Source: Pseudomonadota bacterium (GTDB lineage: Bacteria > Pseudomonadota > Gammaproteobacteria > Burkholderiales > Rhodocyclaceae). From it: a stretch of 36,587 nt of DNA. The stretch covers positions 1 through 36,587 of the forward strand of contig QQUN01000032.1 in NCBI GenBank assembly GCA_008501585.1, in the 5' to 3' direction. Made by a program: the position numbers and the translations under genes. Below the pieces are notes generated by a model. That model was not told the origin of the DNA and made no database searches. It saw nothing but the letters and a program-made list of their open reading frames with translations. Position 1 is the stretch's first letter. Every line of letters begins with the position of its first letter. This document shows positions 10,286-30,782 of the stretch, one piece after another.

Positions 10286-10735
10286 ATGAACACTTTTCAG
10301 ACAATCCGCCAACTGGCGCTGGTCGCCGCGTTTTCGATGAGTGCCGGTGCGGCCTGGGCCGAGCTGCCCGAAGCCACCATGTACAAAGACCCCAACTGCG
10401 GCTGCTGCGGCAAGTGGGCCGAGCACATGCGCGCGGCCGGTTTCGCGGTGAAGGAAGTCCCCAGCCACGCGATGGACCGCATCAAGTCGCAGTTGGGTGT
10501 CCCGGAAGCACTGGGCTCGTGCCATACGGCGCGGATCGGCAACTACGTCATCGAAGGCCATGTGCCGGCCGCCGACGTCAAGCGCCTGCTGGCCGAACAA
10601 CCCGCCGGCGCCCGCGGCCTGTCCGCCCCCGGCATGCCGATGGGCTCGCCGGGCATGGAAGGCGGCACCCCGGACCGCTATGATGTGGTGCAGTTCAACG
10701 CCGATGGCGGCCAGACCGTGTTCGCCAGCCATTGA
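10286..10735 (+). CDS. DUF411 family periplasmic metal-binding protein
   Basis: A 149-residue exported protein with signal peptide ending AWA|ELPEA. It carries the DUF411 hallmarks: TMYKDPNCGCCGKWAEHMRAAGF (CxCC metal-binding motif near residue 38) and LGVPEALGSCHTARIGNYVIEGHVPAADVKRLL. The C-terminal part adds the usual Met-rich APGMPMGSPGME and YDVVQF. Members are often found in copper-resistance clusters and are thought to bind Cu. A good AAGGAAG ribosome site precedes the ATG. Together with the cytochrome upstream it makes a plausible periplasmic copper-handling unit; metal specificity is inference. Confidence 0.88.
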   Translation: MNTFQTIRQLALVAAFSMSAGAAWAELPEATMYKDPNCGCCGKWAEHMRAAGFAVKEVPSHAMDRIKSQLGVPEALGSCHTARIGNYVIEGHVPAADVKRLLAEQPAGARGLSAPGMPMGSPGMEGGTPDRYDVVQFNADGGQTVFASH

Positions 10736-10758
10736 GCGCATGCCAGGGAGGTGCTGCG

Positions 10759-11076
10759 ATGAAATCGTACGGCCGGATGTTGCTCTTGGCGGTGGCGCTT
10801 GCGGTTGGCCCCGCGCACGCGCAGGAGGCCGGTTCGGTCACCGGCGACAAGGCCACCGACATGGCGGTCGATCTCGTGGTGGTGCGCCCGCTCGGCTTGG
10901 TCGGTGCGGTGGTCGGCACCGTCGGCTTCGTGCTGGCCTTGCCGTTTACCGTACCCAGTGGCTCGGTGGGTGAAACCGCCGAGGCGTGGATCGGCGAGCC
11001 GCTGGAATACACCTTCAACCGGCCGCTGGGGAATTTCGACCAGTGCGGGGCGGACCGGCATCCCTGCGGGAATTAG
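10759..11076 (+). CDS. Small hypothetical membrane/exported protein
   Basis: A 105-residue protein with an N-terminal signal or anchor (KSYGRMLLLAVALAVGPAHAQEAG) and a second hydrophobic segment (LGLVGAVVGTVGFVLALPF, about residues 50-70). Two Cys occur in the C-terminal QCGADRHPCGN. The start is fixed by GGGAGG eight bases upstream; the frame could open earlier at a GTG but without an RBS. It begins 23 bases after the DUF411 gene and is probably the last gene of that transcript. The pattern (signal, short TM, C-terminal FNRPLGNFDxC) looks like a conserved uncharacterised proteobacterial family; no function is assigned. Confidence 0.65.
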   Translation: MKSYGRMLLLAVALAVGPAHAQEAGSVTGDKATDMAVDLVVVRPLGLVGAVVGTVGFVLALPFTVPSGSVGETAEAWIGEPLEYTFNRPLGNFDQCGADRHPCGN

Positions 11077-11198
11077 CCGTCACGGCGTGGGGGCTGAGCC
11101 ACACCTTGACCGAGTTCGTTCAGGTTGTGTGTTGCCGTTCTTGGGGCGGTGTTGCCTTCGGCGAGGGGGCGTTGGCCGGGTCTCGCCCCGGCGGGCGA

Positions 11199-11228
11199 CC
11201 TCCTTTCTTGCACGCGCAAGAAAGGAGG
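11199..11228. repeat. Hairpin of element A, 13-bp perfect stem
   Basis: Arms 11199-11211 (CCTCCTTTCTTGC) and 11216-11228 pair perfectly around a 4-base loop ACGC. The same hairpin, with one wobble and one mismatch, recurs at 30508-30537. The right arm contains AAGGAGG, a Shine-Dalgarno-like sequence that the stem would hide in RNA. Confidence 0.85.
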
Positions 11229-11420
11229 CAAAGAAGGCGCCCCGCTGTGCCGCCGGTTTCGCCGGTGCCCTCTCTGCGCCCGGCGCCGGCGGGTCGTGTC
11301 GCAAACTCGCCCTGCGGGCTCAGACAGCGACACGACAATTCCCGCCGTCCCCGGGCTCCGTTCGGCGGCACAGAAGGGGAATGGCGCACGGGCTCGGCTT
11401 CGCCATCGCCCGAACAGTAG

Positions 11421-11490
11421 GGTGGGCGGCTCGCCGCCCACCATCGTGCCCCACGACCCACGCCGCCCGGTGGGCAACGCGTTGCCCACC
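11421..11490. repeat. REP-like palindrome pair of element A
   Basis: Two GC-rich palindromes, 11421-11442 (arms GGTGGGCGGC / GCCGCCCACC) and 11469-11490 (a perfect 22-bp palindrome with arms GGTGGGCAACG), are separated by 26 bases. The pair is itself bounded by outward-matching TAGGGTGGGC and GCCCACCCTA. Two adjacent palindromes in this layout resemble paired REP sequences. Confidence 0.8.
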
Positions 11491-11623
11491 CTACGAGCTT
11501 GCGCGTGCAAGAAAGGGAGCCGCCCGCCGGGGCGAGACCCGGCCAACGTCCGTCACTTAAAGCCAGACCCCGTGGCATCGGGCAATACCCACCCCGGCGC
11601 CGACCGGATGCCGCCCCCCGCAG

Positions 11624-12703
11624 CTACAGCAAGCCGATCGCCACCAGCCCGGCAAAGGCAAAGAACAGCGCCAGGTGGCTGACGCCTTCGATGGCGTTGG
11701 TCGAGCCGTTGTGCAGGTTGTTCATGACGGCGAGCATGGTCAGCAGCAGCATGCCGCCCTGCATCGGGGTGAGCGCCATGACGATGCGGTCGTCGGTGAG
11801 CAGGGCGATGCCCTCGATCACCGGCAGGGTCAGCAGCACGGTGGCGAGCGAGGCGCCGAGGGCGATGTTGACCGTGGTCTGCATGCGGTTGGCGGCGGCG
11901 GCGCGGGCTGCGGTGAGGATTTCCGGGCTGGCCGAGAGCAGGGCCACCAGCACGGCGGGCAGGCTCTTGGGCAGGGCGCTGCCGGCCAGGCCGGCGTCGA
12001 GCAGCACGGAGAGGACTTCCGACAGCAGGCCGACCAGCACGATGGCGCCGATCATGATGGCCACGTGCAGCCAGGAGGGGCTGTGCGCGGTGTCGTGGGC
12101 TTCTTCGTCCACCGCGGCGACATGCTCGAAGAAGGTGCGGTGCTCGACGGTCTGCAGGCGCAGGAAGGCGGCGTACATCAGCACCATGGTGCCGACGCTG
12201 AACAGCGAGTAGGCCTTCCAGTGTTCGTCGGGCACGAAGTCGGGGATGAACATGCCGATGCCGATGGCGACGATCAGCATGGCCATGAAGGAGTTGGCCG
12301 AGTCGAGGTTGTAGCGCGTGGTGCCGTGCTTGAGGCCGCCGATGATGGCGGCGATGCCGAGGATGCCGTTGATGTCGAGCATCAGCGCGGCAAACACGGT
12401 GTCGCGTGCCAGCGTCGGGTTGGGGGCACCTTGCAGCAGCACGACGAGGATCACCACCTCGACCGAGACTGCGGCGATGGTGAGGATCAGCGTGCCATAG
12501 GGTTCGCCCCAGCGCACCGCGAGGACCTCGGCGTGATGGCTGATGCGGAAGGCGACGCCGATGATGGCGGCGAGGATGACCCCGAGCAGCCCCCACAGCA
12601 TGAGGCCGCCTTGCGCGACCGCGCCGTGTTCGAGCGCGATACCGATGCCCAGGATGGCGGTGGCGAGGAAGATCGGCAGTTCGGCCTTGATGGGGTGTCG
12701 CAT
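11624..12703 (-). CDS. chaA: Calcium/proton antiporter, ChaA-type
   Basis: A 359-residue inner-membrane cation/H+ exchanger of the CaCA superfamily. Eleven or so hydrophobic segments fall in two halves that each carry the conserved acidic alpha-repeat: AAVSVEVVILVVLLQ with NGILGIAAIIGGLKHGTTRYN in the first, and LVALLSASPEILTAARAAAANRMQTTVNIALGAS in the second. A cytoplasmic acidic linker (HVAAVDEEAHD) lies between. Length matches E. coli ChaA (366). The frame stays open about 480 codons upstream, but the conserved N-terminus MRHPIKAELPIFLATAILG starts at the ATG at 12703. The ribosome site is weak. Physiological role would be Ca2+/Na+(K+) extrusion at alkaline pH by analogy with E. coli. Confidence 0.87.
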   Translation of the reverse strand: MRHPIKAELPIFLATAILGIGIALEHGAVAQGGLMLWGLLGVILAAIIGVAFRISHHAEVLAVRWGEPYGTLILTIAAVSVEVVILVVLLQGAPNPTLARDTVFAALMLDINGILGIAAIIGGLKHGTTRYNLDSANSFMAMLIVAIGIGMFIPDFVPDEHWKAYSLFSVGTMVLMYAAFLRLQTVEHRTFFEHVAAVDEEAHDTAHSPSWLHVAIMIGAIVLVGLLSEVLSVLLDAGLAGSALPKSLPAVLVALLSASPEILTAARAAAANRMQTTVNIALGASLATVLLTLPVIEGIALLTDDRIVMALTPMQGGMLLLTMLAVMNNLHNGSTNAIEGVSHLALFFAFAGLVAIGLL

Positions 12704-12894
12704 GGCATTGGGATGTCGGGTGGGGGATGTCCGATTGTGCCTTGCGCCGGGCGTGGGGGCCACCCGCAGGATGTGACGAATCGCGAACGCTCGGCCGTTG
12801 TCCCGGTCCGGAACGAGCCGGCGGAGAAAAATCAAGGCCCAATGCCGGGGCGGACACGGCGGGGGTGTCGCGGGGCAATACGCCAGCGTGTGGT

Positions 12895-12900
12895 TAGAAT
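12895..12900 (+). promoter_or_regulatory. Possible -10 element before the 12947 gene
   Basis: TAGAAT followed by GCTGCG, 47 bases upstream of the chosen GTG start. No convincing -35 was found at the right distance. Confidence 0.25.
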
Positions 12901-12946
12901 GCTGCGATGATGCCGGATCGTGTCGGCGAAACAACAGGAGTGGGTC

Positions 12947-13861
12947 GTGATCAAGCGTGTGGTGTGTCGGGGAGAGAAGATCGAAGCGGTGGGACCGACG
13001 ATCGAGATCGTGCTCAAGGAACTGGCCCGGCGCATCAGCGCGCGCGATGCCGCGCTCGAGGGGGTGCTCGACCAGGTGGTGGTGGCGGACGATTTCCCCG
13101 CCGCCCTGGTGGCGCTGGGCGAGGCGCCGGCGCCGGCCGGGGCCATCGTGCCGACGGTGGCACGCACCGTCTACCGCGATACCGGCCCGGTGCTGGTGCT
13201 CGAGGGGGCGCAGGTGGTGGCCGCGCTGGGGAGCGAGGTCGACGCCATGGCGCGCTTCGTGCACCTGCTCCATGGCGAACTGTGGCGGGCGCGCCTGCAC
13301 CTTGATGCCCTGGCGGCCGGCGAGGCGGGGCTCGGCGCGTGGCAGGACTCGGTGTTCGACAGCCAGCTGCGCCCGGTGGTCGAGGCCATGCGCGGCGAAT
13401 ATGCGGTGAGCCGGCGCACGGTGTGGTCCCTGCCCAATGATGCCGACCTGATGCTCAAGCACCTGCTCGATGTGATCGACGCCTTGCCGGCGGCCACGGC
13501 CGAGGACCTGGCCACCGCCGCGGCCGACCTCGACGGCCTGTTCGTGCGCAGCCTCGGACGCATTGCCCATCTGGCGCAGACCGCCGCCCACACCCAGGGC
13601 TATCTGACCGGGCTGGATCGGTCGATGGCGGCGATCAGCCCGGAGATGGCGGCGGCGGTCGAGGCGAGCTTCTTCGGCCCGCACTGGTCGGCGCTGTCGG
13701 CGCAGCTCGATACGCTGTTCCAGGCCACGGAGGCGACCGCCATCGAGGCCGCTCGCGGCGAGGTGCAGCACACGCTGGTGGCGGTGTTCGCCAGCCTCGG
13801 CCTGCAACTGCGCCGCGCCGAGGACGGCGGCGTGTGGTTGTCGCCCGGCGCGGCGACCTGA
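12947..13861 (+). CDS. Hypothetical soluble protein upstream of azlCD
   Basis: A 304-residue protein not recognised as any named family. GTG at 12947 is preceded by AGGAG seven bases away; an earlier GTG in frame at 12920 lacks a site. The N-terminal 110 residues look like an alpha/beta domain (IKRVVCRGEKIEAVGPTIE, then TVYRDTGPVLVLEGAQVVAALG). The remainder is almost wholly helical and Ala/Leu-rich (FVHLLHGELWRARLHLDALAAG onward), with no signal peptide, membrane span or catalytic motif. It ends three bases before azlC, so the three genes probably form one transcript. A helical bundle regulatory or scaffold role is possible but unsupported. Confidence 0.65.
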   Translation: MIKRVVCRGEKIEAVGPTIEIVLKELARRISARDAALEGVLDQVVVADDFPAALVALGEAPAPAGAIVPTVARTVYRDTGPVLVLEGAQVVAALGSEVDAMARFVHLLHGELWRARLHLDALAAGEAGLGAWQDSVFDSQLRPVVEAMRGEYAVSRRTVWSLPNDADLMLKHLLDVIDALPAATAEDLATAAADLDGLFVRSLGRIAHLAQTAAHTQGYLTGLDRSMAAISPEMAAAVEASFFGPHWSALSAQLDTLFQATEATAIEAARGEVQHTLVAVFASLGLQLRRAEDGGVWLSPGAAT

Positions 13862-13864
13862 GCG

Positions 13865-14569
13865 ATGAATCGCCGTTTCGTGGCCGGCGCCCGTTCCGGG
13901 TTCCGCATCTTCCTGCCGCTGTCGATCGGCCTGATCCCGTGGGCGCTGGTGACCGGCGTGGCGCTGACCTCGGCGGGCCTGAGCGTGGTCGAGGCGATGG
14001 GCATGAACCTCCTCGTCTATGCCGGCGTGGCGCAGATCGCCACGCTGCCGCTGATCATGGCGGGCGCGCCGCTGTGGCTGATCGGGCTCACCGGCCTGGC
14101 GCTCAACCTGCGTTTCCTGATCTTCAGCGCGGCCATTGCCAAGGGCTTCCATGGCGTGCCGCTGCGGCTGCGCATCCCCTCCGGCTACCTGCTGATCGAC
14201 GGCGTGTTCGCGGTGTGCACCGAGCGCATGCTGGCGGTGCGCGACTGGCGCTGGCGGCTGGGCTATTTCCTCGGCCCGTCGCTGTGGGGCTGGTGCCTGT
14301 GGCAGAGCTTCGTGCTCACCGGCGTGCTGGGCGCCGGCGCCTTGCCGCAGGACTGGTCGCTGGAATTCATGGCCACCATTGCGCTGATGGTGATCCTCGT
14401 GCCGCTGTCGAAGAACCGGCCGATGCTGGTGGCGGCCCTGTCGGGCGGGGTGGCTTCGGTGCTGCTGCGGGGCATGCCGCTCAAGCTGGGGGTGATCGTG
14501 GCGATCGTGATCGGCATCGTGGCCGGCTTTGTGGCCAGTCGGGCGCTGCCTGACACCCGGGGGGCGTGA
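13865..14569 (+). CDS. azlC: AzlC family branched-chain amino acid exporter, large subunit
   Basis: A 234-residue inner-membrane protein of the AzlC/YgaZ (LIV-E) family. Seen are GFRIFLPLSIGLIPWALVTGVALTSAGLS, the conserved NLLVYAGVAQIATLPL stretch, LALNLRFLIFSAAIAKGFHGVPL (the NxRxxxFSA signature) and a C-terminal pair of hydrophobic helices. With AzlD it would export branched-chain amino acids or analogues. The stop overlaps the ATG of azlD (TGATG), as is usual for this pair. Length is typical (about 230-250). Exact substrate is not determined by sequence. Confidence 0.88.
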   Translation: MNRRFVAGARSGFRIFLPLSIGLIPWALVTGVALTSAGLSVVEAMGMNLLVYAGVAQIATLPLIMAGAPLWLIGLTGLALNLRFLIFSAAIAKGFHGVPLRLRIPSGYLLIDGVFAVCTERMLAVRDWRWRLGYFLGPSLWGWCLWQSFVLTGVLGAGALPQDWSLEFMATIALMVILVPLSKNRPMLVAALSGGVASVLLRGMPLKLGVIVAIVIGIVAGFVASRALPDTRGA

Positions 14570-30431: not shown

Positions 30432-30507
30432 TTTTTTTGCCGCGTAGCGCGTCGGTCTGGTTGCCTTCGGTGGCGGTGCGCTGGCCGGGGCTCGCCCCGG
30501 CGGGCGA

Positions 30508-30537
30508 CCTCCTTTCCTGCACGCGCAAGAGAGGAGG
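30508..30537. repeat. Hairpin of element B
   Basis: Arms 30508-30520 and 30525-30537 around an ACGC loop; 11 Watson-Crick pairs, one wobble and one mismatch. Same position and loop as the hairpin at 11199-11228. The two base changes weaken but do not abolish the stem. Confidence 0.75.
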
Positions 30538-30589
30538 CAAAGAAGGCGCCCCGACTGTGCCGCCGGCTTCGGCTTCGGCCGAATTGCAG

Positions 30590-30659
30590 GGTGGGCGGCA
30601 AGCCGCCCACCATCGTTCCCCAAGACCAACGCCGCTTGGTGGGCGGCAAGCCGCCCACC
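30590..30659. repeat. REP-like palindrome pair of element B
   Basis: Two identical palindromes with arms GGTGGGCGGC / GCCGCCCACC and an AA centre lie at 30590-30611 and 30638-30659, separated by 26 bases. Both spacing and outer flanks (AGGGTGGGC and GCCCACCCTACGAG) match the pair in element A. Confidence 0.8.
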
Positions 30660-30782
30660 CTACGAGAATCGATGACGTTGGTCGCCCGCCGTGGCGAGAC
30701 CCGGCCAACGAAGGGGTGGCGTCAGCACGACGGTTGAAGCGCACCTGACGAAACAGGGCGCGACCAGCCCGGCCGCCGTTTG

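Follow-up and report, generated by a model that had tools for sequence, protein, structure and literature searches.

The window analysed here, a 36,587-nucleotide stretch of contig QQUN01000032.1, belongs to one of ten Denitromonas genomes compared (G000; its relatives are G001-G009) and holds a palindromic element at 11170-11548 between two convergent open reading frames (Table 1). An inverted-repeat search of the window returned outer arms at 11167-11220 and 11498-11551 (54 nt, 93% complementary), matching the 51-bp terminal repeats reported in a preliminary description of this DNA. The perfect 13-bp hairpin stem (11199-11211/11216-11228) and the REP-like (repetitive extragenic palindromic) pair listed there were also recovered; the latter, two 26-nt segments of 81% complementarity in the element centre (11417-11442/11469-11494), is a GTAG-REP pair. 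A further inverted pair lies at 11240-11255/11363-11378 (88%), and a 27-base end, usually with CG directly 5' of it, occurs at 11172-11198 and, with one mismatch, at 11520-11546. Together, the nested hairpins and 51-bp outer repeats are well above chance expectation. The element is best read as belonging to a family of long-inverted-repeat cassettes, of which it would be a copy that is empty and has lost part of its sequence. What is new here is that, at some loci, the arms of this family enclose AT-rich cargo that differs among species.

Table 1. Features of the element and its surroundings, in window positions.
Feature	Position	Strand	Remark
Outer 27-base end of arm A (TTGGCC...GGGCGA)	11172..11198	+	Exact 27-mer in at least 109 stretches of the searched genome contigs
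H2 hairpin in arm A (perfect stem of 13 bp)	11199..11228	+	Sequence differs among copies, pairing kept (covariation)
Arm A, ~245 bp, with branched hairpin H3	11172..11414	+	Arm-A matches and relatives' orthologues
REP pair, two GTAG-tagged palindromes	11417..11494	.	In the centre, the cargo position at other loci
Arm B remnant, outer 51 bp	11498..11548	-	~150 inner bp missing relative to relatives
Flanking open reading frame	10732..11076	+	Ends 96 bp ahead of the element
Flanking convergent open reading frame	11624..14152	-	Ends 78 bp past the element; open reading frame span, start provisional
Second, shortened family member	30481..30708	.	Flanks also found around an arm locus in relatives, for example L070, L211

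Folded as a single DNA strand, the element reached -155.7 kcal/mol, compared with -98.5 ± 4.1 kcal/mol in 100 shuffles, none of which was as low (0/100; z = -14.0). A complete copy elsewhere in the genome (G000:C61:55099-55630), folded as RNA, gave z = -19.2. The element contains no transposase gene, as had been noted. In being short, non-coding and bounded by terminal inverted repeats, the window copy resembles a miniature inverted-repeat transposable element (MITE); other members of the family carry genes. The central pair corresponds to a GTAG REP or bacterial interspersed mosaic element, i.e., a dispersed 20-40-bp GTAG-tagged palindrome, and the same REP is also found alone elsewhere in this genome. 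The arms do not: they measure 210-245 bp and have a different end.

Five relatives (G001, G003, G004, G006 and G009) carry the element at the focal locus, each with a full B arm. Their B sides are ~150 bp longer than that of the window copy, which is thus incomplete. In G005 and G007, 14-18 bp separate the regions that match the convergent genes on either side, versus 552 bp in the window, so the focal site can be empty; the exact insertion point is unreadable from these genomes because ~170 bp of further flank is missing there too. In G002 and G008, the left flanking gene alone matched. In a topology test, the B arms of the focal locus did not form one clade (p-AU 3.7e-5). Arms, too, have been replaced, independently of the flanks.

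A complete unit of the family consists of two convergent arms, A of ~245 bp and B of ~210 bp. The preliminary description had proposed searching the genome and its relatives, with a finding of only two copies and no shared boundaries as evidence against a MITE-like element. The search instead revealed a dispersed family with shared boundaries. Using the window element as query against its own genome, BLAST returned 95 matches at E ≤ 0.001, many of which cover just the REP part or come from the reverse strand of the same arms. The 27-base end, allowing one mismatch, occurred 20 times in this genome, versus 0 for the pattern read backwards. The better matches to an arm-A query separated into A arms, with 86-96% identity, and B arms, with 75-81% identity across spans of positions 1-161 to 1-211. 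In cargo-free complete copies, most of them ~470-600 bp long, a short centre containing GTAG-tagged palindromes links the A and B arms. For each of 14 element places taken from G000, at least one flank could be matched to an arm flank in a relative; at 10 of these places both flanks matched, and the remaining four are single arms or contig ends. These common flanks indicate that the sites are old within the genus.

Arms were present in seven of the ten Denitromonas genomes and absent from G002, G005 and G007. The family extends to other Betaproteobacteria: among the matches listed, sequence records containing the exact 27-mer come also from Zoogloea, Hydrogenophaga, Rhodoferax, Polaromonas, Comamonas and Cognatazoarcus. 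With up to one mismatch it is rare in an even sample of the order, being found in 2 of 399 genomes, one of them the window's own.

Cargo was compared at three Denitromonas loci: X (L052, L062, L066, L071, L073) and Y (L051, L061, L068, L072, L074), with five species each, and Z (L050, L060, L067, L101, L102, L103), where three of the six were seen from arm B only. The flanks of X and Y were roughly 80-96% identical across the five species, the matched length being ~1.5 kb for most pairings and 0.3-0.8 kb for some that involve L061 and L068. Between the arms lay 0.8-1.9 kb of DNA with a GC content of 41-57%, versus 63-71% outside. Each species had different cargo at X and at Y, and DNA matches between species inside either locus were limited to stretches of at most ~210 bp adjoining the arms. 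In the alignments, arm B was conserved to ...GCGCGGCAGAGGGC, where the cargo began; on the A side, the arm was followed by GTAG REPs and then by cargo. The cargo borders matched arm borders, not gene borders, and the arms at X, Y and Z draw on one pool across loci. Locus Z was mostly alike among species, and four of the six have a conserved ~0.7-kb gene between the arms, towards arm A. The comparison shows that sites are common to the species, that the cargo at each site is variable, and that it starts at the inner arm end.

Cargo genes were taken as the longest open reading frames, and the PADLOC results are matches to models from a scan of part of the inner frames. Profile matches included Type II restriction-modification, GapS4a/b, TIR-TM and CBASS-like HNH proteins; half of the 22 cargo places had no defence match. 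At E ≤ 1e-10, PADLOC matched 6 of 31 inner proteins, two of the 31 coming from the solo-arm locus S described below. A small control of 10 genes outside arms yielded 0 matches at this threshold and weaker ones for three (best 1.3e-8). The cargo is apparently often of an anti-phage kind.

The elements were also found in G211, a genome of a different genus in the same taxonomic family that came from the order sample and was selected without regard to cargo. Its four elements are all pairs with 0.7-2.3 kb between the arms, at 49-58% GC versus 65-71% outside; the fourth has a disrupted left arm. Within elements, the arms are 98%, 96%, 90% and 75% identical. In element E1, a FitA-like antitoxin and a PIN-domain protein are accompanied by a TIR-domain protein (PADLOC, 7.5e-24) and by a small protein of no assigned family, and E3 encodes an Mrr-type nuclease domain; profile scans of the E2 and E4 cargo proteins gave no family match. 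At least three of the four have GCAGAGGGG, or a close variant of it, at the end of both arms, with cargo after it. Weaker partial arm matches occur in G211 on C14, C7 and C2; two of these, L244 and L245, had no arm end at up to 8 mismatches.

We regard it as about an even call that the family consists of repeat-bounded cassette-exchange loci, the dispersed arms acting as homology tracts for the replacement of an arm and its cargo. Each unit comprises two facing structured arms, built of a 27-base outer end, a covarying hairpin and a branched hairpin, and is usually located shortly after the ends of genes; the space between the arms holds either GTAG REPs or cargo genes. Incoming or ectopic DNA would recombine in or just outside an arm, and this recombination would replace the arm plus cargo. 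Breaks at the hairpins may assist recombination, and some transposition activity may have spread the family initially. Recombination in the arms is probably the route of cargo replacement. Several points weigh against cassette exchange. One genome per species was compared, and a recombinant or exchange event within a species was not observed. At locus Z, G004 and G009 have a common 1.6-kb inner stretch (94%), which is not replacement. The B arms of locus Y reject a single clade narrowly, and the shuffle test for Y was not low (108/500). Gene conversion among repeats could by itself account for the likeness of arms at different loci, cargo being exchanged via flanking genes. Finally, the four G211 elements, every one paired and with cargo, fit a transposing unit equally well.

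Such a unit would be a cargo-bearing non-autonomous transposon, akin to a mobile insertion cassette, in which arm, cargo and arm move as a whole, mobilised in trans by a transposase that recognises the 27-base ends. Strongly conserved inverted ends in several genera are consistent with it, as are the complete G211 pairs, with their different cargo and arms alike within each element, and a cargo free of transposases except for an rve-type gene in L060. Nevertheless, we judge it unlikely. There was no consistent target-site duplication in 63 pairs at offsets of 0-49 on both sides: the best exact 4-mer was shared in 5/63 pairs at one offset (3-4 in shuffles), the best 5-mer in 2 (2-3), 6-mer in 1 (1-2) and 8-mer in 1 (0-1). 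The places in the window's genome are common to relatives, and since the same site holds different cargo in different species, a transposon would have to insert repeatedly at one spot. No autonomous relative with the same ends was seen among the examined cargo pairs, the genome-wide transposase search being for PF01797 only; passenger genes are present, but no insertion sequence (IS) with the 27-base ends turned up, without an IS library having been searched. Mobilisation by an IS with matching ends, one of two routes suggested in the preliminary description, is unsupported. An arrangement that dispenses with the arms, in which they are bystander terminator-like repeats at a safe harbour or minimal mobile element and cargo is exchanged by homologous recombination through the flanking genes, seems less plausible still. 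It accords with the conserved, syntenic flanks and with an avoidance of divergent gaps: 26 of 43 resolved pairs lay between convergent genes, 16 between tandem genes and 1 between divergent genes, versus 38, 114 and 29 background gaps (rough gene calls, with orthologues counted more than once). It does not account for cargo that stops at arm rather than gene borders, for a single arm pool at X, Y and Z, or for the solo arms adjoining low-GC genes seen in other genera as well.

The other suggested route was a REP-associated tyrosine transposase (TnpA-REP/RAYT), which would mobilise the whole structure; in a related reading, the structure would be a TIRtron-type repeat. GTAG REPs do lie in the element centre and beside cargo, and TIR families around Y1 transposase genes have been described (PMC3733652). 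There were 11 Y1 (PF01797) matches in eight of the ten Denitromonas genomes; at five of these loci the gene is flanked on each side by GTAG REPs (GTAGGGCGGG in two cases, GTAGGGTGCAAT in three). However, an arm end lay within 1.5 kb of 0/11 Y1 matches, the best fits mismatching at 9 of 27 bases, and at none of the 11 was the Y1 gene bracketed by the repeat as in a REPtron or TIRtron. Moreover, G008 has arms and no Y1 match, whereas G002 has a Y1 match and no arms. RAYT genes can thus explain the central REPs, not the element, and we consider RAYT mobilisation of the whole element highly improbable. Overall, the dispersed family, shared boundaries and GTAG REPs of the MITE-like interpretation are supported; the movement of the whole element by a RAYT or IS is not.

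Mobile insertion cassettes and MITEs have inverted-repeat ends and passenger genes and lack a transposase. The family resembles them in these respects and differs in its structured arms of ~205-245 bp, its fixed sites common to species, and the absence of any matching autonomous element or consistent target duplication among our results. The nearest concept is the minimal mobile element of Neisseria (PMC3898611), in which different whole-gene cassettes occupy the space between conserved neighbours across lineages and no transposase is needed. Loci X and Y show this arrangement and Z partly does; here, by contrast, the borders are dispersed, structured inverted-repeat arms that are also empty at many sites and are themselves exchanged between loci. 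In repeat anatomy, the nearest match is with the TIR families that lie beside Y1 transposases (PMC3733652). Both are long, partly self-complementary inverted repeats of moderate copy number that occur as dimers and have GTAG REPs inside, but in the ten genomes no Y1 gene is bracketed by arms, and the cargo is defence-like. The core defence hotspots of Pseudomonas aeruginosa and E. coli are similar in that anti-phage genes gather at particular chromosomal places; here there are one to few cargo genes, bounded by a repeat family that is also empty elsewhere. A search by titles of the open-licence PMC literature found no description of arms combined with swappable cargo, which does not imply absence from print.

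We propose tentatively, and with somewhat less than even confidence, that this is a transposase-less betaproteobacterial cassette system in which paired arms mark fixed docking sites and anti-phage genes are swapped by arm recombination. If so, one and the same site would hold different small defences in related species, and cargo genes of no known family would form a list of candidate defence genes for testing. Anti-phage gene exchange would gain a physical address with readable borders, and arm-bearing genomes could be scanned for cargo. Repeat-bounded replacement would be a route by which very small defence cassettes that lack their own integrase or transposase could spread, and large palindromic repeats, often dismissed as debris, would have a possible role.

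Other candidate explanations were discarded. For carriage by plasmids or phages, two of 72,556 plasmid records matched, over 31-41% of the query; a search of 50,697 phage records with arm B alone gave 0 matches. A structured RNA was set aside because Rfam gave 0 matches at gathering score in seven sources (92,593 bases), with sub-threshold matches only; the clear covariation of H2 fits an RNA or a DNA hairpin alike. An integron attC site seems unlikely, as the end reads GTTGGCC and does not fit the core GTTRRRY. Insertion into the loop of a terminator palindrome was rejected because likeness of the left and right flanks beyond the 27-mer was significant in the Zoogloea-like group only (p = 0.0045, 14 elements), the values for Denitromonas, a mixed comamonad group and G211 being 0.90 (41), 0.09 (8) and 0.50 (4), respectively. 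In these counts, near-duplicate rows were removed and non-Denitromonas records were grouped by hand, four of the 14 "Zoogloea" records (L127, L167, L184 and L213) lacking a Zoogloea title. At both ends, the 10-12 bases immediately outside the 27-mer have patterns specific to the genus, for example CGTCACA or CGTGACG (Zoogloea), CTTGGT (Hydrogenophaga) and GGCGA (Cognatazoarcus); the real boundary of the element may therefore be further out.

A 65-210-bp stretch just inside arm B, ending near GGCATATACTT, is common to X, Y and Z (L062, L061, L072 and locus Z). It may represent a promoter or what is left of earlier cargo; an oriented promoter beside arm B was rejected, as the stretch is present at some loci but cargo lies in either orientation. 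At locus S, five species have solo B arms followed by different small low-GC genes, encoding an HNH-like protein in G000 and a DUF4124-like protein in G004 (L104 2478-3274, L106 16507-17370). G008 has a divergent arm subfamily, partly as tandem units of ~590 bp, two or more in a row (L091, L092, L093, L097). In Cognatazoarcus halotolerans (L180, L192), arms stand in direct repeat ~380 bp apart and GC falls on the inner side. Finally, in Zoogloea L212 (1417-3420; same junction in L122 and L206), a gene for a 362-aa transposase, presumably IS110-like, interrupts an arm within its H2 hairpin, one half of which flanks the gene on each side; it looks as though the IS carrying this gene targets the H2 palindrome.
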